Source of the DNA: Acidobacteriaceae bacterium
Lineage (GTDB): Bacteria > Acidobacteriota > Terriglobia > Terriglobales > Acidobacteriaceae
DNA: 64,000 nucleotides
Direction of reading: 5' to 3'
Assembly (NCBI GenBank): GCA_030041435.1
Contig: JASHNW010000042.1
Span: forward strand, 62,001-126,000
The position numbers and the translations under genes are program-made. Positions within the stretch are counted from its first letter, which is position 1. The number at the start of each line of letters is the position of its first letter. Shown here in pieces: positions 8,069 to 24,115 of the stretch. Under the pieces are notes generated by a model. That model did not search any database. It worked only from the letters and a program-made list of their open reading frames with translations, and was not told the DNA's origin.

Positions 8069-8478
8069 GGGACGACCGCGAAACTCGCAGTCGGATCATG
8101 CGCGCGGTTAAAGGAGAAAACACAGGGCCAGAGATATTGGTCCGGCGGATGGTGCGTGGCATGGGGTATCGCTACCGCCTCCACAGTGCAGCGCTCCCAG
8201 GCAAACCGGATCTGGTATTTTCTCGGCTCCGCAGAGTGATTTTTGTGCATGGGTGTTTTTGGCACGGCCATTCATGTTCCCGAGGCGCTCGCGTCCCCAA
8301 AAGCAATCGCGCGTACTGGACTCGGAAAATCGACGGCAACAGGATTCGCGACAAGAGGAATGTTGCCGCGCTGAAGTCAGCCGGCTGGAATTCGTTGCTT
8401 GTCTGGGAGTGCGAGTTGCGGAACGAGGATCGCGTTCGACACAAAATTGAGAAGTTCCTGACCGGCCCGCGCCGATAG
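8065..8478 (+). CDS. vsr: Very short patch repair (Vsr) DNA mismatch endonuclease
   Basis: 137 residues. Vsr nicks 5' of the T in T:G mismatches formed by deamination of 5-methylcytosine. Visible family features are the N-terminal S-x-MRAVKGENTGPE block, GYRYRLH, LPGKPDLVF (catalytic Asp region), the metal/zinc block IFVHGCFWHGHSC, then YW-x-KI-x-N-x-RD and a C-terminal GW...VWECEL. The length is typical. The start ATG overlaps the stop of the preceding gene (ATGA at 8065-8068), so it is the last coupled gene of the RHH-methylase-DUF4928 operon. It presumably repairs deamination damage at the sites this methylase modifies. Confidence 0.93.
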   Translation: MRDDRETRSRIMRAVKGENTGPEILVRRMVRGMGYRYRLHSAALPGKPDLVFSRLRRVIFVHGCFWHGHSCSRGARVPKSNRAYWTRKIDGNRIRDKRNVAALKSAGWNSLLVWECELRNEDRVRHKIEKFLTGPRR

Positions 8479-8528
8479 CTTCCCTGCGTCTATACTGGCC
8501 GTTGCGTTTTGGTAACGGGAGTGGATGC

Positions 8529-9647
8529 ATGGTGGTTTCGCGTCGTCGATTTCTGGGGGGGCTGGCTGCAGCTTCCCTTGCCTTCCCTTCTCTGGCCGAG
8601 TCGGCCGATTCTGACAACGGTAATGTAACGGCTGCGAATACGAATGCCGGGGCGAGTACGGCTGGGGCTGGCGTGTCGGCGGCCGGGTCAGCAGGCGCTG
8701 AGGGTCTGGAGCCGAAGGCTTCCGCCTCAATGGCAAATTGTCCTTTCCGGCTGTCGGTGATCAATGACGAGATTTCGCAGGACTTCGACCATGCCTGCTC
8801 GGTGGCGGCTAACGATTTTGGGCTGCATTGGATCGAGCTGCGCGGGATGTGGGGCAAGAACATCACCGATCTGAACGCCCAGGAGATTGCCGCGTCGCAG
8901 CGGATCCTGAAGAAATATGGGCTGCGGGTGACGGACATCGCCAGCCCGCTGTTTAAGGTGGACTGGCCGGGGGCTCCCAGGAAGGATGGGCTGAAGCGGG
9001 ACGAGTTTCACGCCCATGCCGACTTTGCCCAGCAGGAGGCGCTGCTGGAGCACTGTATCGACCTGACGCGGGCGTTTGCGACGGACCGGGTGCGGTGCTT
9101 CGACTTCTGGCGGTTGCAGGATGTGTCGCCGTACCGGGCGGAGATTAACGCGAAGCTGCGGGAGGCGGCGGCGACCTGCGAGAAGCATGGCGTGATTCTG
9201 CTGCTGGAAAACGAGATGGACTGCAATACGGGGACGGCGGAGGAGGCGGCGGCGACGCTGGCGGCGGTGCCGAACAGGAACTTCATGCTGAACTGGGATC
9301 CGGGGAATGCGGGGACGTTTCCGGGGGCGGTGCCGTTTCCGAAGGGGTGGGACTTGCTGCCGCACGAGCGGATTGGGCATTGCCACGCGAAGAATGTCCA
9401 GAGGGACGACTCGGCGGGAACGCGACCGGAGCTGGGGCGGCCGATGCCGGGGAAGTTCGAGTGGGAGCCGGTGGGTGTGGGGGTGGTGGACTGGGTGGGT
9501 CAGCTGAAGGCGTTTCATGCGATGGGCTACCACTACGCGGTGAGTCTGGAGACGCACTGGCGGGGAGCGGGGACTCCGGAGGCGTCGTCGCGGGTGAGCA
9601 TGGCGGATTTGAAGAAGGCGCTGCGGGAGGCGGGGGTGGCTTGCTGA
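8529..9647 (+). CDS. Tat-exported sugar phosphate isomerase/epimerase-like TIM-barrel protein
   Basis: 372 residues from ATG 8529, placing a twin-arginine signal (SRRRFLGGLAAASLAF) right at the N-terminus; an in-frame ATG at 8502 would add nine residues. An Ala/Gly/Thr-rich linker of about 50 residues follows. Then comes a xylose isomerase-like TIM barrel, with ISQDFDHAC, ELRGMWG, an acidic metal position in LLLENEMDCN, NWDPGNAG, GHCHAKNV and a C-terminal SLETHW. These are the metal-binding Glu/Asp/His positions expected in the AP_endonuc_2 fold. The substrate is unknown; family members act on free sugars, inosose-like ketoses or keto-sugars. The next two genes on the same strand are also Tat-exported sugar enzymes, suggesting a periplasmic sugar pathway. 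A heptamer array follows the stop codon. Confidence 0.78.
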   Translation: MVVSRRRFLGGLAAASLAFPSLAESADSDNGNVTAANTNAGASTAGAGVSAAGSAGAEGLEPKASASMANCPFRLSVINDEISQDFDHACSVAANDFGLHWIELRGMWGKNITDLNAQEIAASQRILKKYGLRVTDIASPLFKVDWPGAPRKDGLKRDEFHAHADFAQQEALLEHCIDLTRAFATDRVRCFDFWRLQDVSPYRAEINAKLREAAATCEKHGVILLLENEMDCNTGTAEEAAATLAAVPNRNFMLNWDPGNAGTFPGAVPFPKGWDLLPHERIGHCHAKNVQRDDSAGTRPELGRPMPGKFEWEPVGVGVVDWVGQLKAFHAMGYHYAVSLETHWRGAGTPEASSRVSMADLKKALREAGVAC

Positions 9648-9660
9648 GGGGCAGGGGGCA

Positions 9661-9709
9661 GCTGGGAGCTTGGAGCCGGGAGCTGGGAGCCGGTAACGGG
9701 TGACTGGTG
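9661..9709. repeat. Heptanucleotide tandem repeat, locus 3
   Basis: Five clear units (GCTGGGA, GCTTGGA, GCCGGGA, GCTGGGA, GCCGGTA) and two degenerate ones, starting 13 bases after the stop of the preceding gene. Same family and orientation as the arrays at 4626, 5314 and 11285. Confidence 0.7.
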
Positions 9710-9940
9710 AATAACAGACTTATTTACTTTGATTTGAAGGATATTCCTTGAGAACAGTTGAATATTTGGCGGATATATAGCTAGAAGTAAAGGAAAAAGT
9801 CGGAAAAGAGCAGACTTTCTCGCTAGGCAATCTAGAATTTATCGTTTTGATTCAATGGCTTACTGATATTTCATCAGGTGTTTTCTTTGAATACTCTATA
9901 ACTTATTCTGTTTAAATATGTTGCACAAGACGGAGCGGAG
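9710..9940 (+). promoter_or_regulatory. AT-rich intergenic region upstream of the Gfo/Idh/MocA gene
   Basis: About 230 bases that are strikingly AT-rich against GC-rich flanks. A short palindrome AAGGA-TAT-TCCTT lies at 9737-9749, and the region is full of TTGA and TATA-like words. A purine-rich stretch (CGGAGCGGAG) lies directly before ATG 9941 and may serve as ribosome binding site. It probably contains the promoter of the downstream gene, but no single -35/-10 pair is convincing enough to place. Confidence 0.4.
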
Positions 9941-11278
9941 ATGATCACGCGGAGAGAGTTCAGCAAGGCGGCGGCGTTGGGTGCTGCGGGAATGGCCGTG
10001 GCGACGACAGCGAAGAGCTATGCGCAGATTGTGGGGGCGAACGATCGGGTGCGGTTCGCGACCTTCGGGCTGAACGGCCGCGCGTATGCGCACCTGTCGG
10101 CGCTGCATACGAATGCGGCGACGTCGCGGATGGTGGCGTGCGCGGATGTGGAGAGCCGGATCCTCGCAAAGTTCGCCGCCGAGGCGGAAAAGGAGCTGGG
10201 GTATGCGGTGGAGACGGCGGGGGATTTTCGGCGAGTGCTGGAGCGGAAGGATGTCGACGCGATCTCGATTGCGACGCCGGACCACTGGCATACGCCGATG
10301 GCGATCCTGGGCCTGGAGGCGGGCAAGCACGTGTATGTGGAGAAGCCGTGCAGCCACAATCCGGCGGAGGGGGCGCTGCTGATTGCCGCGCAGCGCAAGT
10401 ACGGGAAGCTGGTGCAGATGGGGACGCAGCAGCGGTCGTCGCCGCACACCATCGAGATTGTGGGGCGGATTCACGATGGGGAGATTGGGCGGGCCTACTA
10501 CGCGAAGGCGTGGTATGTGAACACGCGGAAGTCGATTGGGCATGGGCAGGTAGCGCCGGTGCCGCCGACGCTGGACTGGGATTTGTGGCAGGGGCCGGCG
10601 CCCAGGACGGCGTACCGGGACAATGTGCAGCCTTATAACTGGCACTGGTTCCGGGTATGGGGAACGGGCGAGACGCTGAACAACGGGACGCATGAGGTGG
10701 ACGTGTGCCGGTGGGCGCTGGAGGTGGATTATCCGGAGCGGGTGTCGGCGCAGGGCGGGCGGTATGCGTTCAAGGACGACTGGCAGTTCTACGACACGTT
10801 GGTGACGGAGTATACCTGGCCGGACGCGCTGGGAAATAAGGCCGTGGCGTGGGAGGGGCGGTGCTGCAACGGGGCGAAGATGCAGGGTCGGGACCGGGGG
10901 TCGCAGATCCTGGGGACGACGGGGTCAGTGCTGGTGGATCGGGATGGGTATGAGGTGTACGACCTGAACGGGAAGAAGACGGACGAGTTCCGGGTGCAGG
11001 GGGAGAAGACGTCGTCGGCCGATTTGGTGGGGCGGGATTCCATGACCGATGCGCACTTTGCTAACTTCATTGCCGGCATCACGAAGGGGGAGAAACTTCA
11101 TGCTCCGATTGAAGTGGGGAACGTGGCGGTGACGATGCTGCAGCTGTCGAATATTGCCTGGGAAGTGGGGCGCGAGCTGCGGCTCGATACGGCGGATGGG
11201 GGGAAGATTGTGGGGGATGCGGAGGCTGCCAGGAGCTGGGGACGGGAGTATGAGAAGGGGTGGGAGCCGCGGGTGTAG
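9941..11278 (+). CDS. Tat-exported Gfo/Idh/MocA family oxidoreductase
   Basis: 445 residues. A twin-arginine signal (TRREFSKAAALGAAG) leads, followed by a Rossmann domain (RVRFATFGLNGRAYAHL; ACADVESR) and the family signature GKHVYVEKPCSHNPAEG with the catalytic Lys of EKP. The C-terminal alpha/beta substrate domain (about 150-440) has MGTQQRSSP, NWHWFRVWGTGETLNNGTHEVDVCRWAL and a final helix. Such enzymes oxidise or reduce sugar hydroxyls using tightly held NAD(P). Tat export of a folded, cofactor-loaded protein fits that. It lies between two Tat-exported isomerase/epimerase genes. By analogy with known keto-glycoside pathways it may make or use 3-keto sugars, but the substrate is inferred. 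The start ATG 9941 has a purine-rich site just upstream. Confidence 0.85.
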   Translation: MITRREFSKAAALGAAGMAVATTAKSYAQIVGANDRVRFATFGLNGRAYAHLSALHTNAATSRMVACADVESRILAKFAAEAEKELGYAVETAGDFRRVLERKDVDAISIATPDHWHTPMAILGLEAGKHVYVEKPCSHNPAEGALLIAAQRKYGKLVQMGTQQRSSPHTIEIVGRIHDGEIGRAYYAKAWYVNTRKSIGHGQVAPVPPTLDWDLWQGPAPRTAYRDNVQPYNWHWFRVWGTGETLNNGTHEVDVCRWALEVDYPERVSAQGGRYAFKDDWQFYDTLVTEYTWPDALGNKAVAWEGRCCNGAKMQGRDRGSQILGTTGSVLVDRDGYEVYDLNGKKTDEFRVQGEKTSSADLVGRDSMTDAHFANFIAGITKGEKLHAPIEVGNVAVTMLQLSNIAWEVGRELRLDTADGGKIVGDAEAARSWGREYEKGWEPRV

Positions 11279-11284
11279 CGGGGA

Positions 11285-11319
11285 GCTGGGAGCTGGGAGC
11301 GGATAGCGATGAGGCGATC
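11285..11319. repeat. Heptanucleotide tandem repeat, locus 4
   Basis: Units GCTGGGA, GCTGGGA, GCGGATA and two degenerate heptamers, beginning seven bases after the stop of the oxidoreductase gene. The order GCTGGGA-GCGGATA also occurs inside locus 2. Confidence 0.65.
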
Positions 11320-11384
11320 AGGGTAAGTCGACCGGCAAAGATATCGAATCATGAGATGGTTAGCCGGAAAATCTGAGGTAAAGG

Positions 11385-12281
11385 ATGAAGCAGATGACGG
11401 GTGCGGGTGGGGTGAGCCGGAGGGGATTTTTGACGGGGGCGGCGGGGGCCGTGGGAACCGCAGTTCTGATGCCGCGAGGCGCGCGCGCGGAGGGGTTGGC
11501 CGCGAGAGCGGAGGAGAAGGCGACCACGGCGAGCCCGATCCGGCTGGGGATGGCGAGCTATACGTTTCGGGACTTTACGCGGGCACAGCTCATTGGATAC
11601 ATGAAGGAATTAGAGCTAACTGCTCTTAACGCTAAGGATGCGAAGGATCACCTGCCCATGGATCCGGCGGGAGAGGCGCAGGCTTTGGCGGATTACCAGG
11701 CGGCGGGGATTCGTCTGCATGCGGCCGGGGTGGTGTCGCTCGCCGTCGACTCGGACGAGGATATGCGGCCGAAGTTCGAGTACATCCGGCGGGCTGGGCT
11801 GAAGGTGATGGTGGCGGGCGATCCGAAGCCGGCGGCGCTGCCTCGGGTGGAGAAGTTTGTGAAGGAGTATGACATTCGCGTGGCCATCCACAACCATGGG
11901 CCAGAGGACAAGCTGTGGCCGTCGCCGCTGACGGTGCTCGAGGCGGTGAAGGGGATGGATGCGCGGCTGGGATGCTGCATCGATGCGGGACACACGGTGC
12001 GGGCTGGGACGGACGTAGTGGAGGCGGTGCATGCAGTTGGGCCGCGATTATTCAACATGCACATGAAAGATCTGACGGATTTCCATGATAAGGCGAGCCA
12101 GGTAGCGGTGGGCGACGGAAAAATGCCGGTCCGAGGGATCTTCGAGGCGCTGCGGGCGATCCGTTATCCGGGGTACGTGGATCTGGAGTACGAGGTGCAT
12201 GAGGACGACCCCATGCCGGGGGTGACGAAGAGCTTTGCGTACATGCAGGGCGTGCTGGCGGGGATGGGGCTGACCGCCTGA
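11385..12281 (+). CDS. Tat-exported sugar phosphate isomerase/epimerase
   Basis: 298 residues with an N-terminal twin-arginine signal (SRRGFLTGAAGAVGTAVL) and then a compact TIM barrel of the xylose isomerase-like superfamily. Features include LGMASYTFRD, the metal/substrate positions in VAIHNHGPED, GCCIDAGHTVRAG, FNMHMKDLTDFHD and a C-terminal YVDLEYEVHEDDP. ATG 11385 is preceded by AAAGGATG-type purines. It is about 100 residues shorter than its upstream relative at 8529, because it lacks the long linker. It follows the Gfo/Idh/MocA gene on the same strand after about 100 bases and is plausibly cotranscribed. The oxidoreductase/isomerase pairing suggests conversion of a sugar or inositol-like compound outside the cytoplasm. 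The exact substrate is unknown. Confidence 0.82.
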   Translation: MKQMTGAGGVSRRGFLTGAAGAVGTAVLMPRGARAEGLAARAEEKATTASPIRLGMASYTFRDFTRAQLIGYMKELELTALNAKDAKDHLPMDPAGEAQALADYQAAGIRLHAAGVVSLAVDSDEDMRPKFEYIRRAGLKVMVAGDPKPAALPRVEKFVKEYDIRVAIHNHGPEDKLWPSPLTVLEAVKGMDARLGCCIDAGHTVRAGTDVVEAVHAVGPRLFNMHMKDLTDFHDKASQVAVGDGKMPVRGIFEALRAIRYPGYVDLEYEVHEDDPMPGVTKSFAYMQGVLAGMGLTA

Positions 12282-12438
12282 GAGGGTACGAACGGGGGAA
12301 AATTGGCACCGGCGAAGGGCTCTGCAGCTTCCATCCACCGTTATAGTTGTCCCCGTTGTTGCCGATCAACACGGCAAGGACGGCGGGATGGGAGCAGTCG
12401 CAAGGGCGGTGGTGGCCCCCGAACGCAGCGATCACCTC

Positions 12439-13650
12439 TCAGATCAGCAGCTTTGCGCTGCGTGGGGGCAGGTCGCGGGTGCCTAAGGCGGCGAGGGTAG
12501 CGGGATCCTGAGCATGCACGGAGGCTGGCGTGGGGCTGGTCATCACTTCCCTGAGGGCTACCTGGAATTGGTCCATCTCGCTGCGGGTGCCGACGGTGAT
12601 GCGCACATACGTCGGCCAGATGGGCCAGACGCGTCCGATGTAGACGTTGCGCTGGGCCATTGCGGTCATGACTTCCCTGCCCGGGCGGCCGGTATCGACC
12701 ATGAAGCAGTTGGTCTGCGAGGGGATGAACTTGTAATTGTTGGCGGAGAGCCAGGAGAAGACGTCAGTGCGGATGTCGGTATTAATTTTGCGGCGTTGCG
12801 GAACGAGCTCGGGTGTCTGCAGGCTGCTGGTGGCGGCGGCGACGGCGAGGATGGGGTTGGAGTTCATGCCGTAGGTCTGGATTTTCGCGAGCAGATCGGG
12901 GCGGCCGATGGCGAGGCCGCAGCGCAGGCCGGCCATGCCGTAGACCTTGGAGAAAGTGCGCAGGACGATGAGGTCCTTGTCGGCTCTGACGAGGTCGAGC
13001 GACGGTGTGGCGTCAGAGAAATGGATGTAGGCTTCGTCGACGAGGAGGATGGAGCCTTTGGGCTTGTTGGCGAGAGCGTATTCGATGTCGGCGCGGGTGG
13101 TGATGGTGCCGGTGGGATTGTTGGGGTTGCAGATATAGAGGACGCCGGCATTGGGATCGGCGGCGACCATGGCGCGCACGTCGTGGGAGTAGTCGGCGGC
13201 GAGAGGAACCTTGACGATTTTGGCGCCGGAGTATTTTGCGGCGTACATCGGGGCCTCGTAGCTGGGGTCGGCGACGACGAGGCTGCGCTGGGGCGAGGTG
13301 AAGGCGAGGACGGTGTAGTGGAGAGGCTCGCTGGAGCCGGCGTAGACGAGGACGTAGTCGGAGCTGAGGCCTTCCTGTGCGCTGAAGGTGTCGACGAGCT
13401 TCTGGGTCAGCTCCATGTCGTAGCGGCCGCCTTCGGGGAGGAGGCTGGACATGACGGCGCAGGCGCCGGAGCAGGGGCCGAGCGGGTTCTCATTGGCGTC
13501 AATGCGGACGGCGCCGGGAGGGATGACGCGGGCGAAGCGGCGGCGCTGGGCGTGGGCGAGTTGCGGCTCTGTGAAAATTGGCATGGCGGCGACGGCGGAT
13601 GCGGCAGCGGCCATGCGGAAGAACGAGCGGCGAGAGAGATCGGTCTTCAT
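12439..13650 (-). CDS. Tat-exported histidinol-phosphate aminotransferase-like PLP enzyme
   Basis: 403 residues from ATG 13650, which has an excellent AGGAGG site upstream; a longer in-frame start at 13704 lacks this and precedes the Tat motif. Signal: SRRSFFRMAAAASAVAAM. The mature part is a fold-type I aminotransferase of the HisC branch: DANENPLGPC, PSYEAPMYA, YICNPNNPTGT, LLVDEAYIHFSD and the PLP-binding Lys in RTFSKVYGMAGLRCG (Lys about 235). C-terminal YVRITVGT also fits. True HisC is cytoplasmic; the Tat signal and the absence of other his genes argue against histidine synthesis. It is the last gene of a minus-strand group: TonB-type receptor, amine oxidase, RidA, aminotransferase. It probably transaminates an amino compound in the periplasm; the substrate is unknown. 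Confidence 0.85.
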   Translation of the reverse strand: MKTDLSRRSFFRMAAAASAVAAMPIFTEPQLAHAQRRRFARVIPPGAVRIDANENPLGPCSGACAVMSSLLPEGGRYDMELTQKLVDTFSAQEGLSSDYVLVYAGSSEPLHYTVLAFTSPQRSLVVADPSYEAPMYAAKYSGAKIVKVPLAADYSHDVRAMVAADPNAGVLYICNPNNPTGTITTRADIEYALANKPKGSILLVDEAYIHFSDATPSLDLVRADKDLIVLRTFSKVYGMAGLRCGLAIGRPDLLAKIQTYGMNSNPILAVAAATSSLQTPELVPQRRKINTDIRTDVFSWLSANNYKFIPSQTNCFMVDTGRPGREVMTAMAQRNVYIGRVWPIWPTYVRITVGTRSEMDQFQVALREVMTSPTPASVHAQDPATLAALGTRDLPPRSAKLLI

Positions 13651-13700
13651 GTGCGCCTCCTGGAGATTCGAGCCCAGCGGATTCCTGACTCCCTGATTCC

Positions 13701-14234
13701 TCATTTGCCGACAGCAGCACGCATGGCGCTGTTGCCGGCGTGGGTGTTGACGGCGACAACTTCGATTTCGATCAGCGCGCCGGGGAGCGCGAGCGCATCG
13801 ACCTGCATGGCGCTGCGGGCGGGCTTATTGGGTTGATCCTTTGTGCCAAAGAACTGGGTGTAACCGGCCATAAATCCGGGGAAATCCATCTTGCCGTTTT
13901 TGTTGGGATCGGCGGCCAGATACGCATGCATCAGGACGACGTCGCCCAGGCTGAGGTGCTGGGCTTCGAGAGCCTGCTCGATGGTCTGGAGCGTGTGCAC
14001 GGTCTGGGTTTCGGTATCGCCGGGGGTGCCTTTGGCGACCGAGGAATCGAGCATGCCACTGAGGTAGAGCGTGTCGCCCACCCATACACCTTCGGAGATG
14101 GGGAAGGTGGAGTTGTTGGGCAGCGGAACGCGAGTAACAGTGGCCTGCGCGGCGGCGAAGGAGGGAGATGCGAGCGCTGCGGCGGCGAGCAGCGTGGGCA
14201 GGGCAACTTTGAAAGCCAGGAGCTTACGCGGCAA
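13701..14234 (-). CDS. Exported RidA/YjgF-family imine deaminase
   Basis: About 177 residues. I take the start as TTG at 14234, because a GGAGG lies five bases before it and the protein then begins with a signal peptide (KLLAFKVALPTLLAAAALASPSFAAAQ). The apparent ORF extending to 14714 is a Ser/Pro-rich shadow of the upstream gene. The mature part has RidA features: ISEGVWVGDTLYLSGML, TLQTIEQALEAQ, VVLMHAYLA and the C-terminal block ARSAMQVDALALPGALIEIEVVAV with the conserved Arg and Glu. RidA hydrolyses reactive imines/enamines produced by PLP enzymes and amine oxidases. Here it overlaps the amine oxidase gene by 11 bases and precedes the aminotransferase by 50. An exported RidA matched to two exported imine-generating enzymes is notable. 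Confidence 0.82.
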   Translation of the reverse strand: MPRKLLAFKVALPTLLAAAALASPSFAAAQATVTRVPLPNNSTFPISEGVWVGDTLYLSGMLDSSVAKGTPGDTETQTVHTLQTIEQALEAQHLSLGDVVLMHAYLAADPNKNGKMDFPGFMAGYTQFFGTKDQPNKPARSAMQVDALALPGALIEIEVVAVNTHAGNSAMRAAVGK

Positions 14235-15798
14235 GGCTGCCTCCGTTCTGGATGCGGACACCCAGTTGATTGATGACGCGATACGAGGAGAGCGCCGCGC
14301 CTTCCTGCCAGCCGACGAGGTGGCTGGTGTGGTCGCCGGCGAAGTAGACGCGGCGGTCGGGCACGAGGAGGGGCAGCATGGAGTCCGCAGAGACGCGGCC
14401 GAAGCCGCTGATCCACGAGCCGAGGTTGTAGGGGATTTGGCCCCAGCTGATATAGACGGGTTTGGAGAGATCTTTGCCGTGGCCGGGGTGGAGGTACTCG
14501 ATGGCCTGGCGGGAGGCGGCGAGTTTGGCTTCGAAGGTGGGGAGATTGCCGAAGGCGGCGCCGTTCTCGATGCCGTAGCCGCTGACGACGACCCCGCGCT
14601 CGGAGAAGAAGCGCGCGCTGGGATACCAGACGACGCTGACGGTCTGCTGCAGATAAGAGAGGCCGCCGTAGATGTAGTTTTCCTTCTCCCAGAAGCGGGG
14701 AGCTTCCCAGGCAACTTTATAGGCAGAGTCGTAACTGACGCCGTCGATGGCTTTCTGCACGGCGGGGCTGAAGTCGGCGTCGAGGGTTTTGACGATGGTG
14801 AGGGGCATGGCGCAGATACAGTAGTCGGCGGTGACGGTGCGATCGGCGCCGCTGGCCTCGTCGCGATAGACGACGGTAACGCCGGCAGGCGACTGGCGGA
14901 TGCGGCGGACGACGGCGCCGTTGCGGATGACGGGACCGAGGGCCTTGTGGAAGGCGAAGGGGATGCGGTCCATGCCGCCGATGGGCTGAAACATGGTGGG
15001 CTGCCAGTCGATGACTTCTTCGGACATCATGGCCCGCCAGAGGTTGGCGTCGAGAAGGGCATCCATGGGGAGCGGATCGATCGCTTCGGGCATGGCTGCG
15101 CCGGCGCCGGGCGGAACTTTGAAGCCGGAGCGCTCGGTGCCGCTGAAGAGATAGTCGGGTTTGAGGTCGCCGTAGATGCGGAGAAATTCGAGCATGCGCT
15201 CGCGGTCCGCAGCGGTTAGTTCCTGATCGAGCGCGCCCTGATTGATGGATTTGGCGAGGAGCTCGGAGACGTGGCCGCGGGTGTCGTTGACGACGCGACG
15301 CTCGGTGACGGGCTGGCCGCCGTTCAGCTTGTCGGCCTGCATGAGCGCGGCGCGCGAAGAGTTGACTTCGACTTCGAGAGGGACGCCGAGCTCGGTGCAG
15401 TAGCCGAGCATGGCGCGATGAATGGAAGGCAGGCGGGCAGGACCGGCGTTGAAGTAATTGCCCTCGTCGAAACTGCAGGCTTGTTTGAAGCCGGTGGTAA
15501 ATTCGACATCGGCGCCGCCGCGGAGAGTCCAGTTGCGGCCTCCGCAGCGCTCGCGGGCTTCGAGAAGGGTGACGGACCAGCCGGCTTTGCGGAGCTCGTA
15601 AGCGGCGACGAGGCCGGCGATACCGCCGCCGAGGATGACGACCCTGGTTCCCTTCCCGTCGATGAGGCGGAGTTCGCGATCTTCGGCGGCTACTTCGGGG
15701 ATGGCCACGAGGCCCAGGGACTGCATCATGACAAAGGCCGCGCTGTATCCGCCAGCCTGGCCCACACGCATCAGAAACTGACGTCTGGTAAGACTCAT
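14224..15798 (-). CDS. Tat-exported FAD-dependent (mono)amine oxidase
   Basis: 524 residues from ATG 15798, the start that puts the twin-arginine signal (TRRQFLMRVGQAGGYSAAF) at the N-terminus; an upstream in-frame start at 15909 gives a non-signal leader. The dinucleotide-binding motif VVILGGGIAGLVAAYELRKAG is followed by LLEARERCGGR, the fingerprint of the flavin amine oxidase family. The C-terminus has the FAD-closing motif RVYFAGDHTSHLVGWQEGAALSS. The family oxidises amines or amino acids to imines with release of H2O2. It lies in the same orientation 125 bases downstream of the TonB-type receptor, and its 3' end overlaps ridA. The substrate is unknown, but a compound imported or bound by the receptor is a reasonable guess. 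Confidence 0.88.
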   Translation of the reverse strand: MSLTRRQFLMRVGQAGGYSAAFVMMQSLGLVAIPEVAAEDRELRLIDGKGTRVVILGGGIAGLVAAYELRKAGWSVTLLEARERCGGRNWTLRGGADVEFTTGFKQACSFDEGNYFNAGPARLPSIHRAMLGYCTELGVPLEVEVNSSRAALMQADKLNGGQPVTERRVVNDTRGHVSELLAKSINQGALDQELTAADRERMLEFLRIYGDLKPDYLFSGTERSGFKVPPGAGAAMPEAIDPLPMDALLDANLWRAMMSEEVIDWQPTMFQPIGGMDRIPFAFHKALGPVIRNGAVVRRIRQSPAGVTVVYRDEASGADRTVTADYCICAMPLTIVKTLDADFSPAVQKAIDGVSYDSAYKVAWEAPRFWEKENYIYGGLSYLQQTVSVVWYPSARFFSERGVVVSGYGIENGAAFGNLPTFEAKLAASRQAIEYLHPGHGKDLSKPVYISWGQIPYNLGSWISGFGRVSADSMLPLLVPDRRVYFAGDHTSHLVGWQEGAALSSYRVINQLGVRIQNGGSLAA

Positions 15799-15923
15799 GT
15801 CTGGGAAATACCTGCCTTCTCTGTGAGGGGGGGAGAGTTGATTTGTTATAGCGCAAAATGTGCGGCGAAGGCTCCCGAAAAAGGGGCCCGTGGCCGGAGA
15901 CATAGCCACGGGCTTCAGGGAGG

Positions 15924-18900
15924 CTAAAACAAAAGTTTGAGGGCGAGCTGTGTATTGTATGGCTCGCCCGCGCCAATGCCGGGAGCGCCGTAGTTGGCGC
16001 CGATGGTGGTGCCGATGGCGCAGGAGCTGGAGTCGGTACAGTAGCCGTCGCCGGGCGCCGCGAGGTTGAGATGGTTGAAGAGGTTGAACATTTCCACGCG
16101 GAACTGCGCGGTGACACGCTCAGTGATGTGGGTGTTCTTGAAGACCGACAAGTCGACATCTTCAAAGCCGGGGCCGTGGAGAACGTTGCGCGGCGTGTCG
16201 CCGTAGGCTCCGTTGGCTGAAGGTGCGAAGGCGTTGGGGTTGAGCCAGTTGACCGACTCGTCCTGAACGGAATGCGACACACCCGCGTAGGGACTGGCGC
16301 CGGGGACAAAGTTGGCGCGCTCGGCGTATTCGCCGTTGCCGCTGCCGCCACTGTTGCTGGAGTAGACGGTGAAGGGCTGGCCGCCGTGAAAATTCAGGAG
16401 GCTGTTGAGCTGCCAGCCGCCCACCAGCCACTTTGGGCCGGAGCGGGAAGGCACGTCGTAGGTGATGTAGGTGTTGAAGGTGTTGCGGACGTCAAAGTCG
16501 CTGTTGCTGTATTCGCACTGCAGGCAAAAGCTGTTTTCCGGGTTATAGAGGTAGATTTCGCTGCTTTCGTCCAGAGAGTGCGACCAGGTGTAGGAGGCCT
16601 GGGAGGTGAGGCCATGCCAGCGCGCGAAGCGAACGAGGGCTTGCAGGGAGTTGTAGTTGGAGATGGCCTCGGACTGGATCTGATTGATGACCCCGTAATT
16701 CGGGAACTCAGAGCCATAAGGCCGAGAGGAGTTGGCGCCGCCGCTGCCCAGAGCGGCCTGGTTGATGTCGACGAGGTCGCGGAGATGGTGACCCTCGCTG
16801 CCGACGTAGCCCAGCTGCACGATCGCGCCGGGGCCGAGGCTGCGCTGCACGTTGAGGTTGAAGTTTTCAACGTAGCCGGGGCGCAGGTGCTGGCTGACGG
16901 AGAACAGATTGACCGACGGGCAGGAGGAAGAGTTGGGATCGACGATGCAGGGATTCGTGGGGCTGCTTTCGTTGGCGAAGATGGGTGAACCGAAGGCGGA
17001 GCCGGTGGGAATGGTGGCGACGACGGGCGAAGTCTCTTCAACCGGGCTCGATCCCGCTGGATTATCCTGGACGCCGAAGGGGCCACCGTTCGAGGAAAAA
17101 CGCGAGTTGAGAAGGTTGACTACGTTGGGGCTGTCGAAACCGAGGCCGAAGCCGCCGCGGACAACGGTCTTGCCGTCTCTGGTGGGTTGCCACGAGAAGC
17201 CGCCGCGCGGGCTGTAGCCGCCGAACCACTGCGGATAAAGATACGGAATGGTAGTGCCGGCAATGGCGATGCCGTTGGGCGCCGAGGGCAGGAAGATGCT
17301 CAGGTTATCCCATGGATTGTGCATGGGGCCGGTGTACTCGTAGCGCATCCCGTAGTTGATATTGAAGCGGGGAGAAATCTGCCAGGCGTCCTGCGCGAAG
17401 AGCGCCCAGGAGTTGAGGAAGACCTGGCGTTTGGGGTTGCCCTGCACGATGTTGGTAACACCGGGATCGAAGCAGCCGGCGAGAAAGTCGGCCAATTCGC
17501 CGATGTGCGGATCGGTGAAGGTGGGTGGCGTAGCGGGTGTGGTGGTGGCCAGGGCATCGCAGGCGGTGCCGGTTGCGCCACTCCAGGGCCCCTGGGTTCC
17601 ATCGAAGACGAACTGACCGCGCTCGCCGCTCTGGTAGAAGTCGTCGATCTGGGCCTGGCGGAACTCACCGCCGTAGCGCATCTCGTGTTTGCCGACGGTC
17701 CAGGAGAGAGCTTCATCGAGGTGGCCGGTGATGTCGTTGCGGCCGGAATCGACGGTAGCACCGACAAAGTCAAACCCGCTGGCGGCCGAGCCCAGGCCGC
17801 TGCTGGCTGCCGGCGCGGCAATCTGCACACGCGGAGCGCCGGCCAGCGAGGGATCGGTAGCGCCGGTATTGAAGCCGAGAGCGATGGGGTTGTAATCCTT
17901 GCTGGCATCGGAGAATGCCTGGTTGAAGTAATTGACTCCGGCAAAGAGCTGGTTCGCGATGCGCGGGGATAAGACAGAATTCCAGGTGAGGGAGTAGTTC
18001 TGGACGTGCATGGGCGCTACTTCAAAGTAGGGGGCGAGCAGCGAAACGGTGGGGGCGATCTGCGGGCCCTGGCCCACGTACCACTTGGCCGAAATTTTGT
18101 TATTTGCATTCAGCGTGTAGTCGAGTTTGATGAGGCCGTTGTGACTGTCGCCGGTTTCATCGGCGGGGCTGAAGTAATTGCTGGGCGAGGCGGAACCGGT
18201 GAGGGCAGCCGCGGGCCAAAGGCCCTGATACTTTCCGGCGCCACTGAGAAGATTGATGGACGCCTGATTTTCCGGAATGCCCCAGGCATTCAGCTCCTGC
18301 ATCGCCACAGCCTGATAGGCGGCGGAGGGTTCGGTGGACGGCTGACCGACGCCGATGATGAACTTCTGCTCTTCATAGGTGACGAAGAAGAAGGCGTGAT
18401 CGCGCCATATGGGACCGCCGGTGGAGAAACCGAACTGCTGGTTGCGCAGCTCAGGCTTGCTGGGGTCAAACGCCGACTGCGCGGCCAGGGCTTCGTTGCG
18501 GTTGAAGTAATAGGCGCTGCCGTGAAAGGTGTTGGAGCCGGATTTGATGACGAGATTGACTGTAGCGCCGGGATTGCGCCCTGTCTCCGGGCTGGCTTCG
18601 GTGAGCGTGGAAAATTGCTCGATGGCATCGATGGGGAGGGTGACGCCGGCGATGCCGGAGACGCCGCCCTGATTGGCTGCGGGGACGTTCCACCAGACGT
18701 CGTTGTTGTCGGCGCCTTCAATCTGCCAGTTCACCATGTCGGGGCGGGTGCCGTTGACGGAGCCATAGCCGCCGCCGGCGTATCCGGCATAACCGGGCGT
18801 CACCGCGATCATCTGGGTGAAATCGCGGCCGTTCATGGGCATGTCCTGGACGGTCTGGCTGGGGATATCGGTGGTCTGCACGGTGGAGGTGGTATCGAGG

Positions 18901-19283
18901 GCCAGGGCGCTGGCGGAAACCTGGACGGTCTGCGCAGCCGAGGTGATGCTGAGTTTGACGGGCAGCGTATAGACGGTGCCGGCGGAAACGGGCACGCCTT
19001 CGACTTTCTCGGTCTTGAAGCCGGAAGCAATGACGGTGATGTTGTAGTTGCCGATGGGCATGCCGGCGAAGGCGAATTCGCCGCCGCTGGAGGTGACCAC
19101 TTTCCAGGAAACGCTGGTTTGGGCGCTGACCGCCTCGACCGACGCCCCGGGCACGACTGCGCCGCTGGGATCGGCGACGGTACCGTTGATGGCGCCGCGG
19201 AAATTTTGCGCGTGGAGAGATATGGCTGCGAAGAACAGAGTAAGAACGGATTGGAATACACGTCGAGCGGCTGAGCTTCTCAT
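15924..19283 (-). CDS. TonB-dependent receptor, Oar-like, with carboxypeptidase-regulatory domain
   Basis: 1,119 residues. A signal peptide (VFQSVLTLFFAAISLHAQ) is followed by a carboxypeptidase-regulatory-like beta domain (about 25-110: GAINGTVADPSGAVVPGASVE, VEGVPVSAGT). A plug domain (about 120-230, with IPSQTVQDMPMNGRDF) and a long beta-barrel come next. It ends in a terminal aromatic strand (LALKLLF). This is the large acidobacterial outer-membrane receptor type; no TonB box is obvious. Downstream and in the same direction are three exported enzymes of amine/imine chemistry, so it may bring in or bind their substrate, such as a peptide, amino sugar or alkaloid-like amine. The upstream 430 bases hold a perfect 10-bp inverted repeat that could be an operator. 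The family is sure; the ligand is not known. Confidence 0.9.
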   Translation of the reverse strand: MRSSAARRVFQSVLTLFFAAISLHAQNFRGAINGTVADPSGAVVPGASVEAVSAQTSVSWKVVTSSGGEFAFAGMPIGNYNITVIASGFKTEKVEGVPVSAGTVYTLPVKLSITSAAQTVQVSASALALDTTSTVQTTDIPSQTVQDMPMNGRDFTQMIAVTPGYAGYAGGGYGSVNGTRPDMVNWQIEGADNNDVWWNVPAANQGGVSGIAGVTLPIDAIEQFSTLTEASPETGRNPGATVNLVIKSGSNTFHGSAYYFNRNEALAAQSAFDPSKPELRNQQFGFSTGGPIWRDHAFFFVTYEEQKFIIGVGQPSTEPSAAYQAVAMQELNAWGIPENQASINLLSGAGKYQGLWPAAALTGSASPSNYFSPADETGDSHNGLIKLDYTLNANNKISAKWYVGQGPQIAPTVSLLAPYFEVAPMHVQNYSLTWNSVLSPRIANQLFAGVNYFNQAFSDASKDYNPIALGFNTGATDPSLAGAPRVQIAAPAASSGLGSAASGFDFVGATVDSGRNDITGHLDEALSWTVGKHEMRYGGEFRQAQIDDFYQSGERGQFVFDGTQGPWSGATGTACDALATTTPATPPTFTDPHIGELADFLAGCFDPGVTNIVQGNPKRQVFLNSWALFAQDAWQISPRFNINYGMRYEYTGPMHNPWDNLSIFLPSAPNGIAIAGTTIPYLYPQWFGGYSPRGGFSWQPTRDGKTVVRGGFGLGFDSPNVVNLLNSRFSSNGGPFGVQDNPAGSSPVEETSPVVATIPTGSAFGSPIFANESSPTNPCIVDPNSSSCPSVNLFSVSQHLRPGYVENFNLNVQRSLGPGAIVQLGYVGSEGHHLRDLVDINQAALGSGGANSSRPYGSEFPNYGVINQIQSEAISNYNSLQALVRFARWHGLTSQASYTWSHSLDESSEIYLYNPENSFCLQCEYSNSDFDVRNTFNTYITYDVPSRSGPKWLVGGWQLNSLLNFHGGQPFTVYSSNSGGSGNGEYAERANFVPGASPYAGVSHSVQDESVNWLNPNAFAPSANGAYGDTPRNVLHGPGFEDVDLSVFKNTHITERVTAQFRVEMFNLFNHLNLAAPGDGYCTDSSSCAIGTTIGANYGAPGIGAGEPYNTQLALKLLF

Positions 19284-19460
19284 GCGGGTACGACCTCCGA
19301 AAAGTAGTTAGCCCGTCGCGGGTGCGACCGCGATGGAGCAATGCCAGGGCGCGCAGCACACGTGCGGCGTCGCTTGCCGGCTTTCGTTTCCTTGAGGTCT
19401 TCGACTGGGAAGGTGCCGCGGAGCAGTTGCTCTTCTGACAAGGAAGGCCGACTCGCGGCT

Positions 19461-19485
19461 CTTCATCTCACGACGAGATGAAGAT
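19461..19485. promoter_or_regulatory. Perfect 10-bp inverted repeat, possible operator
   Basis: TCTTCATCTC, five spacer bases, then GAGATGAAGA. It lies about 180 bases upstream of the TonB-type receptor start. No T-run follows on either strand, so a terminator is unlikely. The size and spacing fit a dimeric regulator site. No regulator gene lies nearby. Confidence 0.45.
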
Positions 19486-19628
19486 GGTTGTTCATTGTTG
19501 TCACAGAAGCCGGGAAAATTCAAGCGGCCTGGGCGAATGCGTGCGCAGCATAAGCACCTTTTATGGGCGCGATCCCTGGCGGGAGCGAGGGAAGCGGTTG
19601 GCCGACGACACATTCACCATCGTAAGAA

Positions 19629-19679
19629 CGGCCATCCAGCCCCAGGCGCATTGGGATTGCGTCTGAGACTGGATGGCCG
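19629..19679 (-). terminator. Long imperfect hairpin, probable terminator of the upstream minus-strand gene
   Basis: Outer arms CGGCCATCCAG / CTGGATGGCCG pair perfectly over 11 bp. After a small internal loop, inner arms AGGCGCA / TGCGTCT pair with one wobble around a 7-base loop. It sits 30 bases past the stop of the gene at 19710-21431. The sequence after it on the minus strand is only weakly T-rich (GTTCTTACG), so a structured RNA or processing site is an alternative. The rest of 19284-19709 shows nothing else beyond the operator-like repeat at 19461. Confidence 0.5.
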
Positions 19680-19709
19680 AGTTGTGGTGAGGGTCCGATC
19701 CGAAGCCGC

Positions 19710-21431
19710 TCAAGTGGTGAGGACAAAGCCCATCAGAGCTTCTGCGTCGTATTGGCTCTGCCGGCCATTGCCATTGGTCATGGTAGCGGCCACATACAGA
19801 TCGGCCGCGAACCCTGCGGTTGGACAGCTCCCCAGCAGATCGCCCACGGTCGGCGCGGGCGAGACCGGCGAATCGGCTGGAGCGGCGGTGACCGGTCCGC
19901 TCGGGAGCGCCGCGGGCAGCGGAGGCGATCCCAATCCCGTTACGCCGCGAACGAGGGCGACGGAGAAGTCAGCATAATTCGCCGGCTGGCTCGCAGTAAA
20001 CGCCAGGTTGACGGTAGTGGTTTTGCTGGTGCCGTAGTGCAGCACTCCGCAGCTGTCGGCGACAGTGGCAGGTGTTGTATTGAGCGCCGGCGCCGCGAGC
20101 ACGGCCACGCACTGCTGATTGTTGACCTCAATCATCAGGGGCAGGCTCACCAGGTTCGGGGTGAGTTTGTTTCCGGAGGCGTCGAGGAACTGCAGCTGAA
20201 TGGTGTGCTGCCCATTGGTGAGCGCGGTGCTGTCCAGTTCGTAGCCGAGCGCCGGCGGCTGATAGTCAAACAGCGCCGACACCGGATGCACGGGGAAGCA
20301 TCCGAAAGATGAGCCCATGGCGATGGACGGCACGGTGATTAAGGTGGTGGTGGTGCCGTTCCAGTAGTAGACGGTCCAGCTGCCGGTTTGCACCAGGGTG
20401 TCTACGAGTATCTGGTAGAAGCGGGCACCGGCGTTGTAGGCGGACTGATAATTCACCATGATCGGCAGTGTTCCGCCGAAGGGCGCGTCGGTGACCTGGT
20501 AGGGCGACCCCGACGGGGTCGTAGCCAGCCCCGTGATCTCGTTCACGTAGTTGGCGGGAATCTGACCGACGCCCATCAGGAGCGGACCGTCCGTCAGGAA
20601 CGCGGAGAAGAGGACTTCCTCGATCTCCACGTTGCAGCACACCAGCAGTTCTCCGGAGTACGGCACCGCCACGCTGGAGGGACGGAAGGGGACGCCGGTG
20701 ACCACGGTGTTGACCGCCCCGCTGGTCACGCTCACGGTAACGATGGAGTTGGAAGGGTCACGCTGCGGCACGTACAGCGAGTCCTGCGCCGCGTCGGCCC
20801 AGGTGAGGAAGAAGGGATTGGTCAGGCCACTGGCCACAGAGGTGATGGCCCCGCTACTGATCTGCACCTCTCTGATGTGCCCTGCCTGATCGCTGACGTA
20901 GGCGTACTGCAGGTCCGAAGTGAGCACCAGGCCGATGGCCTCGTTGAGCCCCGACGTGATCACGGTCATCGCGCCGCTGGTGAGATCGATCTTCAGCAGC
21001 CTTGCCGGCGTGTTGTACTCCACCACGTAGGCAGCGTTGTGTGCCTCGTCGAGAAACATCTGCTGTGGCGACTTCATCCCTTTGGCCACAACGGTGGCGG
21101 CGCTGCGGTTCGCGCTGCTGAGCGCTACTTTCACCAGGTCGCCGGTCCGTTCGGTCACGTAGGCATGAACGCCGTCGCTGCTCAGCTTCACATCTTCGGG
21201 CGTGGTGTAGCCGGTTCCCAGGACTTTATAGCCAGGTGTTGCCGGTGCGACCATCAGGGAAGACAAGTTGCCACCGTATTCCACAAAAACGAGCTCGCTG
21301 TGAAGCGCGCTGAAGTCGCAACCAATCGCTCCGCCAAGTCCGGATTGCAAGACTGTTTGCGTCGGCGCCGGGGTTGGGGTGGGTATTGGGATTGGGATAC
21401 GAATGGGGGATCGTGGGGAGATTGCGGGCAT
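19710..21431 (-). CDS. Beta-propeller-like protein of unknown function
   Basis: 573 residues. ATG 21431 has a strong AAAGGAGG site about nine bases upstream, which fixes the start. There is no signal peptide; the N-terminus is a Pro-rich stretch of alternating IP and TP. Residues about 35-280 contain repeated blade-like segments (EDVKLSSDGVHAYVTERTGDLVKV, LTSDLQYAYVSDQAGHIREV, LTWADAAQDSLYVPQRD) typical of NHL/YVTN-type propellers. The second half is a beta-rich, unrecognised region with Cys pairs (LLVCCNVEIEE, ADSCGVLHYG). The function is unknown. The gene stands alone between the acyltransferase and the TonB-type receptor, followed by a hairpin. Confidence 0.65.
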   Translation of the reverse strand: MPAISPRSPIRIPIPIPTPTPAPTQTVLQSGLGGAIGCDFSALHSELVFVEYGGNLSSLMVAPATPGYKVLGTGYTTPEDVKLSSDGVHAYVTERTGDLVKVALSSANRSAATVVAKGMKSPQQMFLDEAHNAAYVVEYNTPARLLKIDLTSGAMTVITSGLNEAIGLVLTSDLQYAYVSDQAGHIREVQISSGAITSVASGLTNPFFLTWADAAQDSLYVPQRDPSNSIVTVSVTSGAVNTVVTGVPFRPSSVAVPYSGELLVCCNVEIEEVLFSAFLTDGPLLMGVGQIPANYVNEITGLATTPSGSPYQVTDAPFGGTLPIMVNYQSAYNAGARFYQILVDTLVQTGSWTVYYWNGTTTTLITVPSIAMGSSFGCFPVHPVSALFDYQPPALGYELDSTALTNGQHTIQLQFLDASGNKLTPNLVSLPLMIEVNNQQCVAVLAAPALNTTPATVADSCGVLHYGTSKTTTVNLAFTASQPANYADFSVALVRGVTGLGSPPLPAALPSGPVTAAPADSPVSPAPTVGDLLGSCPTAGFAADLYVAATMTNGNGRQSQYDAEALMGFVLTT

Positions 21432-21963
21432 AGGAAGCCCTCCTTTCTGATTTCCGGTCGCGGCTGGAATTGAGATTTGCGCGTTATCCTGGACCGCGGC
21501 GGACTACGGCGTCATCCAGTCACCGGCTTCGAGGAAGAGGGATCTGCTCGGGTCTCAGGCGGAGTAAAGCCAGTGGGAGGGCGGCGTGCAGATACAACAT
21601 ACCTGGAATGCACGCTTGTCAAGAGAATTCCTGGGCAGTTGGCGTCAGAATTTGAGATTTTTGCCGTCGGATTGCATCGTCAACGACTCCAGCGGCTTGC
21701 GGAGTGCGATGTTTCGATCCACGCGCCGGATGGCGGCCTGAATGCCGCGTTGGCTGCGGGCTGGCCCGCGACCCCGGGGCCAGCTTCGCATTCCTGAATG
21801 TGGCGAAACGTCCGGATGCGTGGCTTGTGTTCTGCGGCGCGGAACTCTGCTGCGATCGTTTTTCCTCGGTTCACGCACCATCGCCAGTGCGCTCATCGAC
21901 GCGGCGATCCGATTTTGCCGGAGACCTTTTTGTCGATCAAGCCTGGGGCGCGGCGGGCACAGA
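21432..21963. other. Intergenic region without a supported gene
   Basis: About 530 bases containing only short overlapping frames on both strands, none with a recognisable domain or ribosome site. The first 20 bases on the minus strand hold the ribosome site of the 19710-21431 gene. A GC-rich 8-bp inverted repeat (GCTGGCCC/GGGCCAGC) lies near 21755-21785. It may be the remains of a decayed gene, but nothing can be identified. Confidence 0.35.
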
Positions 21964-23148
21964 TCAGGCGCGCGAAGGAGCAACGGGTAGACGAGAGCGG
22001 TGCTCGGTGGGTGCGAAGACGCGCTTGATCCAGCGCTGCGCGGGGCGCTCGATGTAGATGGTGGCCAGCACCGCTGCCAGAACCAGCAGAGCGTAGCTGA
22101 GCCAGGGGTCGAAGCGGGCGAGGCCGGTGCGATCGAGAATGTGCGAGTCGTGGATCAGATTCCAGAGATTGAAATGGAGGATGTAGAGGCAGTAGCTGGC
22201 CTGACCGACGGCGACGAAGGGGAAGAATCCGAAGAAGCGGGCGATGAGGTTGTGGCCGGCGAGACCGAGGACGGCGAGGGCGAAGAGGGGCATCATAAGG
22301 CCGTCGTGCATGAGCGGATAGGGGAAGTGGTCGCCGTAATAGAGGATGAGATAGATGCCGGTCATGCCGAGGAGGCCGAAGAGCAGACGACGGCGCGCGG
22401 CGCGCGGGATGAGCGAGTCGAGATCGGCGAGGACGATGCCGAAGAGGAAGGCGGGAACGTGCGGCGGCGGCGAGAACTTGAGGGCGCGCATCCAGAAGCC
22501 GTCGGTGTAGCGGCCAGGATGCAGGTCACCATCGGGATGCAGGCCCATGTAGAGGCTGGGCAGCACCATGGCCAGGCACCAGAGGGCGAGGAGCAGCCAG
22601 ACCAGGGAGCGGGGGTGTTTGGGGCGCCTCCAGAGCACGACCAGGGGGAAGATGAGGTAGAAGAAGGCCTCGGTGCACATGGTCCACGCAGGCGTGTTCC
22701 AGAAGGTGGAGAGCGTGGGGCTCCAAGCCTGCATGAGGAATGGGGTGAGCGCGACGCCCCAGGCGAACTGCGCGTGCGGGCGGGCATGCCACTCCTGCAG
22801 CAGCATGCCGAGGGAGATGAGCAGCGCGAACAGGTAGATGGGATAGAGGCGCGAGACGCGCGCCACCCAGAAGCTGCGGGCGCTGAGCTGGCCCTGCTGG
22901 GCGCGGTCGGAGTAGTTGTAAGCGAGCACGAAGCCGGAGAGCATGAGGAAGAAGCTCACCGAGGTGTATCCGTTATCGACAATGGGCGCGAAGGGGCCGA
23001 ACCATTTCGGATTGGAGAAATGGAAGAAGACAATGTTCATGGCGGCAAAGGCGCGCAGGCCGGTAAGGGCGGGCAGACGCTCTTTCTTGGCCCTGACGAT
23101 GGCGGGTTTGCCGGCGGCAGCTTTGCGTGCGGCCCCGGCGTCGTACAC
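21964..23148 (-). CDS. Acyltransferase 3 family membrane protein
   Basis: 394 residues. The N-terminus has the family hallmark LPALTGLRAFAAMNIVFFHF (the catalytic-type His in FFH), then FFLMLSGFVLAYNY and about ten hydrophobic helices up to the C-terminus. Basic cytoplasmic loops such as SFWVARVSRLYPIYL are typical. The family O-acylates extracytoplasmic sugars, for example on exopolysaccharide, O-antigen or membrane glycans. No polysaccharide cluster surrounds it, so the target cannot be inferred. It precedes pyrH on the same strand arrangement with a 144-base gap and is unlikely to be functionally linked. Confidence 0.88.
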   Translation of the reverse strand: MYDAGAARKAAAGKPAIVRAKKERLPALTGLRAFAAMNIVFFHFSNPKWFGPFAPIVDNGYTSVSFFLMLSGFVLAYNYSDRAQQGQLSARSFWVARVSRLYPIYLFALLISLGMLLQEWHARPHAQFAWGVALTPFLMQAWSPTLSTFWNTPAWTMCTEAFFYLIFPLVVLWRRPKHPRSLVWLLLALWCLAMVLPSLYMGLHPDGDLHPGRYTDGFWMRALKFSPPPHVPAFLFGIVLADLDSLIPRAARRRLLFGLLGMTGIYLILYYGDHFPYPLMHDGLMMPLFALAVLGLAGHNLIARFFGFFPFVAVGQASYCLYILHFNLWNLIHDSHILDRTGLARFDPWLSYALLVLAAVLATIYIERPAQRWIKRVFAPTEHRSRLPVAPSRA

Positions 23149-23292
23149 CTCGGCAGGGCGAGGAACAATTTGGACTTGCGCGCTCAGAAGCGGTCTCCCG
23201 GATCATTCGCCGTATCGGTGAGGAGGCCGAGGCGCGGTGGAGGAGTGAGGGTCATAGAGGCAACGGAAATGGTTTCCGATGAGGAGACAGCT

Positions 23293-24021: not shown

Positions 24022-24041
24022 CGCTGGAGGGGCTACAGGGA

Positions 24042-24072: not shown

Positions 24073-24115
24073 CCACGCAAGGCGATTACACAGAAAACTC
24101 CCGCAGATTCAACGG

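Follow-up and report, generated by a model that had tools for sequence, protein, structure and literature searches.

In Gluconacetobacter diazotrophicus, the lao-cccA-ridA cluster joins the gene for an L-amino-acid oxidase (LAAO) with a twin-arginine translocation (Tat) signal to genes for a cytochrome c and RidA; a periplasmic site has been suggested, and disruption of lao abolishes the production of indole-acetic acid (IAA) (PMC5053998). RidA and sometimes Rid3 genes are clustered with amine oxidases dependent on flavin adenine dinucleotide (FAD) (PMC4433059), and the Rid3 enzymes PFL_1385 and PSPTO_3006 act in vitro on LAAO-made imines (PMC5619798). PtaA, a Tat-exported transaminase of pyoverdine maturation, works in the periplasm, where its pyridoxal phosphate (PLP) is "somehow regenerated" (review PMC6206403), and Chlamydomonas has a periplasmic LAO1 with LAO2/RIDA (PMC10805672). 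Here, we describe a row of four minus-strand genes in a 64,000-nucleotide stretch of DNA (the window) from an Acidobacteriaceae bacterium, encoding a TonB-type receptor, a flavin oxidase, a Rid-family protein and an aminotransferase. The window is part of contig C109, in a genome of 5.77 Mb. The row is a real, conserved and partly known system, and we consider it reasonably probable that it forms an exported, periplasmic L-amino-acid deamination unit with an accessory transaminase.

The locus resembles lao-cccA-ridA in having a Tat-signal LAAO of the R. opacus (Rhodococcus opacus) type next to a rid gene, but it has no cytochrome c gene and encodes, in addition, a Tat transaminase and, linked to it, a receptor (PMC5053998). 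With the Rid3/FAD oxidase clusters (PMC4433059) and with PFL_1385 and PSPTO_3006 (PMC5619798) it shares the Rid3 residues and the genomic link to FAD oxidases, whereas the window Rid carries a predicted signal sequence and the main texts of these two papers do not contain "periplasm" or "signal peptide"/"signal". The aminotransferase is like PtaA in being a predicted Tat-exported PLP transaminase of a related group, but it does not reach the cut-off of the PtaA equivalog and is encoded together with an LAAO and a Rid (PMC6206403). The Chlamydomonas system also combines a periplasmic LAAO with a Rid partner for deamination outside the cytoplasm; it is eukaryotic, however, and the excerpts of PMC10805672 mention neither a transaminase nor a receptor. 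Finally, the receptor has the CarboxypepD_reg extension and beta-barrel of the Oar-subclass TonB-dependent transporters, but not a match to the Plug domain that Oar possesses (PMC6434023). Because LAAO-rid pairing, Tat-signal LAAOs and Tat-exported transaminases are all in print, the core of the system is not new, and the word "undescribed" in a preliminary description of this DNA has to be withdrawn in view of the Tat LAAO with ridA (PMC5053998), the Rid3/RidA genes with FAD oxidases (PMC4433059) and PtaA (PMC6206403). The combination of LAAO, Rid, Tat transaminase and receptor was not found in searches of open-licence papers, nor was the enrichment of Tat transaminase and receptor at Rid-bearing loci reported below.

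The four genes stand exactly where the preliminary description had placed them (Table 1), and the signals it had read at their starts were recovered. Signal peptides were called heuristically, from the motif, the hydrophobic stretch, start-site evidence and conservation. The receptor has a signal-like N-terminus (MRSSAARRVFQSVLTLFFAAISLHAQ), and the oxidase (MSLTRRQFL) and aminotransferase (MKTDLSRRSFF) both begin with a Tat motif. The oxidase matched Amino_oxidase (PF01593) with 134.7 bits, and its best PDB match was the R. opacus LAAO 2jae (292 bits; runner-up, 129), which was again the top fold match of the predicted oxidase structure, a low-confidence model with a predicted local distance difference test (pLDDT) score of 56. 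We compared five positions, R84, Y371, W426, W467 and Q228, which we take to be pocket residues of the R. opacus LAAO. The position aligned to R84 is Arg in 78/78 acidobacterial and 9/9 other rows, and Trp occupies the W467 position in 77/78 and 9/9, respectively. Tyr or Phe stands at the Y371 position in all 78 acidobacterial rows, and Trp at the W426 position in 61 of them. The Q228 position is Trp in 65/78 acidobacterial rows, including the window (W265), whose oxidase keeps the other four residues (R122, Y408, W462 and W497). By its structure matches, the oxidase is closest to the R. opacus-type LAAO. Given how these matches rank, and given the conservation of Arg, L-amino acids appear likelier substrates than simple amines, and a monoamine oxidase-like substrate was judged less likely; the substrate had previously been given as an "amine or amino acid derivative", of which the amino acid side is favoured. 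Within the first 40 oxidase residues, the 11 rows inspected, which span Acidobacteriota to Deinococcus and Bacillota, resemble one another in a motif of the hydrophobic Tat-signal stretch, M-x-S-L/M-G or a near variant; such a motif is odd for a cleaved signal.

The best-placed rid start is a TTG at 14234, behind GGAGG, which gives the Sec-type N-terminus MPRKLLAFKVALPTLLAAAALASPSFAAAQ and an 11-nt overlap with the oxidase gene. The TTG, the GGAGG and the overlap recur in five relatives (L037-L040 and L053; L numbers denote loci of the oxidase or its homologues, and G numbers genomes), and L042 keeps the GGAGG before an ATG start. The protein matched Ribonuc_L-PSP with 64.5 bits. Its best PDB matches were 9bka (6.4e-28) and 9bkc (2.2e-25), the structures of PSPTO3006 and PFL1385, with the next match at 1.9e-8; both are Rid3 proteins with imine-deaminase activity (PMC5619798). 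The catalytic Arg (PARSAM) and Glu (EIEV) are kept, and FPISEG aligns to PYSQ, with Ile replacing the RidA Tyr, as in the Rid3 pattern (PMC4433059). The catalytic-Arg pattern was found in 38 of the 41 Rids beside an oxidase and, by eye, in 2 more; one gene is broken. Judged by its sequence, the protein is closest to subfamily Rid3. The archetypal RidA identity (TIGR00004) was rejected (46.3 vs a curated cut-off of 106.25).

The most likely aminotransferase start is at 13650, behind AGGAGG, yielding 403 aa vs 421 aa for the longest open reading frame. The protein passed NCBIfam NF006580, the PRK09105 subfamily (536 bits vs a cut-off of 444), and fell below the PtaA equivalog NF051461 (424.9 vs 500). 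HisC identity (TIGR01141) was rejected (207.8 vs 276.55); the "HisC-like" exported enzyme of the preliminary description retains its Tat motif and moves to the PRK09105/PtaA group. An RR-x-F motif was present, by pattern or by eye, in all 15 oxidase-linked transaminases. These enzymes form no single clade in a tree, whose well-supported branches require linkage to have changed at least 3 times. A structure model of the aminotransferase (pLDDT 38, from 6 sequences) was not used.

Table 1. Coordinates of the cluster genes and associated sites in the window
Feature	Position	Strand	Size, basis or remark
TonB-type outer-membrane receptor, CarboxypepD_reg N-terminal domain (Oar-like)	15924..19283	-	PF25183, PF13620, PF00593
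Predicted intrinsic-terminator hairpin, 10 bp stem, then CCCTTTTT	15886..15913	-	between receptor and oxidase
Tat-signal flavin L-amino-acid-oxidase-like protein	14224..15798	-	524 aa; PF01593, 2jae match, TRRQFL
GGAGG, likely ribosome-binding site for TTG start of rid	14240..14244	-	sequence; kept in 6 relatives
Exported Rid3-like imine deaminase (predicted)	13701..14234	-	177 aa from TTG; Ribonuc_L-PSP, 9bka/9bkc match
AGGAGG, likely ribosome-binding site for aminotransferase	13656..13661	-	sequence; kept in 6 relatives
Tat-signal PLP aminotransferase, PRK09105/PtaA group	12439..13650	-	403 aa; NF006580, SRRSFF

The receptor carries CarboxypepD_reg, OMP_b-brl_4 and TonB_dep_Rec barrel domains, with scores of 608 bits for PF25183, 66.7 for PF13620 and 34.2 for PF00593 (cut-off, 27); the CarboxypepD_reg extension and the barrel are both above cut-off, and no match to Plug (PF07715) was found at E 0.001. 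The window genome holds 69 matches to PF25183, some of which are pieces of one gene. When 12 candidates per genome were scored in 61 genomes, nine receptors matched that of the window at E 1e-180 or better. Six adjoin an oxidase, that of G013 lies one gene from an aminotransferase, and two lie elsewhere, one of them in the window genome. In a 13-row tree, these nine and the L042 receptor formed a clade (support 100/100) against three other receptors of the window genome. The L038 receptor falls on a different branch of the clade from its sister genomes, as if exchanged.

Between receptor and oxidase, the predicted hairpin with its T-run was present in the window and in 5/5 close relatives looked at, which argues against a single operon. 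Its fold had a z of -3.25, and 1 of 200 shuffles was as good. Because the terminator scan by itself was not significant (6 terminator-like sites in the region vs 5.3 in shuffles), the weight of the terminator rests on conservation and fold. The oxidase, Rid and aminotransferase genes are tightly spaced, the scan gave no terminator-like site on the minus strand in the gaps between them, and no promoter-like site was found in 12200-19700 (shuffles give 1.2). In L039, oxidase-Rid-transaminase is kept and the receptor was not found, with the flanking sequence on both edges and the terminator remaining by eye; this locus comes from a metagenome assembly, and the missing receptor may be an assembly error. 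Because of the conserved terminator, the receptor is taken out of the operon and is probably a separate transcription unit, and the oxidase, Rid and Tat transaminase likely share one transcript in this genus. The single four-gene operon of the preliminary description was set aside on the strength of this terminator and of L039. Signs of loss were also seen, in the missing receptor with kept edges of L039 (9700-10003) and in receptor fragments elsewhere in the window genome (L145, 3088-3560).

With the window oxidase as a single query against a species-genome collection, a scan limited to close relatives returned 18 loci. A Rid lies behind the oxidase in 9/18, an aminotransferase follows in 6/18, and a receptor or its end precedes in 6/18. 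Since five relatives and L042 keep the order oxidase-Rid-aminotransferase (seven clusters with the window, with both ribosome sites kept), the shared gene order is more than chance. The preliminary model had staked itself on the genes being conserved together; against it, the receptor was not found in L039, and the transaminase often occurs without an oxidase. The L037 aminotransferase reaches only 54% over 354 residues vs 68-82% in the other close loci, and the oxidase and rid of L053 are broken. Of the 61 genomes (the window's own and relatives), 9 have an oxidase match of E 1e-100 or better, and the 7 genomes with a Rid all belong to these. In G003, all that is left of the oxidase is a relic of 87 residues, which has pyrH and an acyltransferase next to it, as the window oxidase does; an oxidase relic at the same locus (L105, 4675-5025) counts as a sign of loss. 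The G031 oxidase is divided between two contigs; a Plug-type receptor precedes it, and a Tat aminotransferase follows in convergent orientation.

Wider sampling covered 299 genomes of the class, where the oxidase was found in 46, Rid in 40 and both together in 33, against about 6 expected (the genomes are not independent). In 7 genomes, Rid occurred without an oxidase (the match was weak in five of these), and additional Rid copies away from the oxidase were seen in several genomes. The transaminase and oxidase were together in 31 genomes (16 expected). Gene neighbourhoods were then compared at 81 oxidase loci, 80 of them acidobacterial and many of them near relatives, after 5 of an initial 86 had been dropped. 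In 41/81 (Rid+), the gene immediately after the oxidase, in the same orientation, encodes a Rid. A transaminase lies within 5 kb in 14/81 loci, namely 12/41 Rid+ vs 2/40 Rid- (Fisher p = 0.007, the loci not being independent), in three arrangements (7 downstream in the same orientation, 6 downstream in the opposite orientation and 1 upstream). A receptor lies within 3 kb in 19/41 Rid+ loci (9 upstream, 10 downstream) vs 3/40 Rid- (p = 0.0001, with the same dependence among loci). Among loci with at least 3 kb on both flanks, the transaminase was within 3 kb in 10/39 Rid+ vs 1/33 Rid-, and the receptor was present in 17/39 vs 3/33. The neighbours named in the preliminary description are thus recurrent company of the oxidase-Rid pair, although the association is statistically unsettled, the tree tests given below not being significant.

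Further neighbours were noted in this sample. At L195, L198, L207, L211, L219, L222, L229 and L230, a gene of one homology group is convergent to the oxidase, and the L195 member scanned is a peptidase M19; such neighbours occur in 5 Rid+ and 3 Rid- loci of one genus code, a hint only that an M19 dipeptidase is a further member. In another genus code (L182, L218, L221 and L224), oxidase-Rid also follows pyrH and an acyltransferase, and the receptor is downstream, not upstream. At L052 (6308-11551), a pyrroloquinoline quinone-type dehydrogenase and a cytochrome c/NHL protein directly precede the oxidase homologue, the latter gene overlapping the oxidase start.

Outside Acidobacteriota, 12 of the 38 plasmid records with a homologue were inspected. 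LAAO-cytochrome c-Rid was found on four proteobacterial plasmids (Sulfitobacter, Comamonas, Ketogulonicigenium and Paracoccus), and LAAO-cytochrome c without an annotated Rid on five (Mesorhizobium, two Rhizobium, Dinoroseobacter and Roseinatronobacter, with an incomplete gene table). A Deinococcus plasmid carries cytochrome c and then LAAO. On a Metabacillus dongyingensis plasmid (L066, 3980-7243), LAAO-Rid is directly followed by tatA-tatC, as though the export machinery came with the unit. A Sphingomonas plasmid (L055, 3995-9566) has an oxidase, a TonB receptor and a Rid in a row, next to which stands a gene of the tryptophan-halogenase family. A signal-like start was seen by eye in five of the six plasmid Rids, including three of the four from LAAO-cytochrome c-Rid plasmids; the Comamonas Rid, as annotated, has none.

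Taken together, these findings suggest the following scheme, in which localisation, chemistry and substrate are predictions. On the basis of homology and the conserved pocket residues, the Tat-exported flavoenzyme would oxidise L-alpha-amino acids to 2-imino acids in the periplasm, with O2 or perhaps a cytochrome as its electron acceptor. The Sec-exported Rid3, with its conserved Arg and Glu and by analogy with published Rid3 assays, would hydrolyse these imines to 2-oxo acids and ammonium. The accessory transaminase may exchange amino groups between donors in the periplasm and the 2-oxo acids formed alongside, and the upstream receptor, probably transcribed separately, may import a peptide or amino-acid derivative. 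The exported imine chemistry put forward in the preliminary description is therefore plausible, and now better supported, as far as an exported oxidase and an exported Rid are concerned, whereas the operon and the novelty attached to it are not upheld. The cofactor of a periplasmic transaminase must be recycled outside the cytoplasm. In a periplasmic transdeamination cycle, the transaminase would take the 2-oxo acids of oxidase and Rid as amino acceptors, the oxidase would re-oxidise the product, and the receptor would feed in peptides or amino-acid derivatives; we hold this extension to be unlikely, but, if true, it answers how a periplasmic transaminase turns over.

Several observations weigh against a periplasmic deamination unit. 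The oxidase model is of low confidence, the hydrophobicity score reported for the Rid N-terminus had also served to choose the rid start, and, in a control with five other Rid paralogs of the window genome, far-upstream starts in two also scored hydrophobic. A seven-sequence cytochrome profile found no cytochrome c gene near the cluster (window 8001-26000). No Rid is present at 40/81 oxidase loci, and the Rid of G236 is not beside the oxidase. Paracidobacterium acidisoli, a named isolate, has an oxidase locus (L043) with neither Rid nor transaminase nor receptor. Two genomes of the same genus, G009 and G011, have the transaminase but not the oxidase, and the transaminase was found in 105/299 class genomes, 74 of which lack the oxidase at the thresholds used; because of this, it is an optional part of the system, and the "complete pathway" announced earlier is weakened. 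Some Rid- loci have short flanks, and at L041 (Rid-) a receptor end below the length filter stands beside the oxidase at the contig start; counting it gives 4/40 and a Fisher p of 0.0004. On an oxidase tree of 79 rows, made by a quick method with long-branch warnings, the states changed 12 times for Rid, 9 for aminotransferase and 13 for receptor, and independent pairs (eight plasmid rows left out, the L041 receptor end counted) gave median p values of 0.125 for Rid-transaminase and 0.07 for Rid-receptor, neither of which is significant.

These tree tests also fit a reading that we consider unlikely, in which oxidase and Rid alone belong together, for damage control, and the transaminase and receptor lie next to the pair for reasons that have nothing to do with it. 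Such chance neighbourhood agrees with the terminator between receptor and oxidase, with L039 lacking the receptor, with relatives of the transaminase and receptor elsewhere in the genomes, and with the many PF25183 matches of the window genome. It does not sit well with the excess of both neighbours at Rid+ loci (by Fisher tests on non-independent loci), with the three arrangements in which the transaminase is linked, or with the nine similar receptors in 61 genomes, six of which are beside an oxidase and one near a transaminase. A biosynthetic role is distinctly unlikely in our judgement. Here, oxidase and Rid would make a specific 2-oxo acid, such as indole-3-pyruvate on the way to IAA, the route put forward for lao-cccA-ridA of Gluconacetobacter, and the transaminase would tailor an exported molecule as PtaA does pyoverdine. 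The loss of IAA production in lao mutants of G. diazotrophicus (PMC5053998), the periplasmic action of PtaA on pyoverdine (PMC6206403) and the halogenase-family neighbour on the Sphingomonas plasmid are in its favour; however, no decarboxylase, nonribosomal peptide synthetase or siderophore gene was found among the ten window proteins scanned, and the R. opacus LAAO is stated to have oxidised 39 of 43 L-amino acids tested (PMC5053998), so that the family is not tied to tryptophan. Very improbable is a receptor working outward, like Myxococcus Oar, to move an exported enzyme across the outer membrane, with deamination outside the cell. The same N-terminal CarboxypepD_reg extension occurs in the Oar subclass, but Oar has a Plug domain, to which the window receptor has no match (PMC6434023), and 16/41 oxidase-Rid loci have no receptor within 5 kb.

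Elsewhere in the window, three genes on the plus strand (8502-12281), of the xylose-isomerase-like TIM barrel and Gfo/Idh/MocA families, have an RR motif near each start, which suggests a further exported set.

Our results suggest that, in one class of the Acidobacteriota, which are soil bacteria, exported LAAO and Rid form a module that recurs, and that this module is repeatedly accompanied by an exported transaminase and by receptors of one particular clade. The presence of a transaminase gene beside a generator of keto acids makes the question of PLP regeneration, raised for PtaA (PMC6206403), testable. If a periplasmic deamination unit is the correct reading, these bacteria would be able to deaminate amino acids outside the cytoplasm, setting free ammonium and keto acids.

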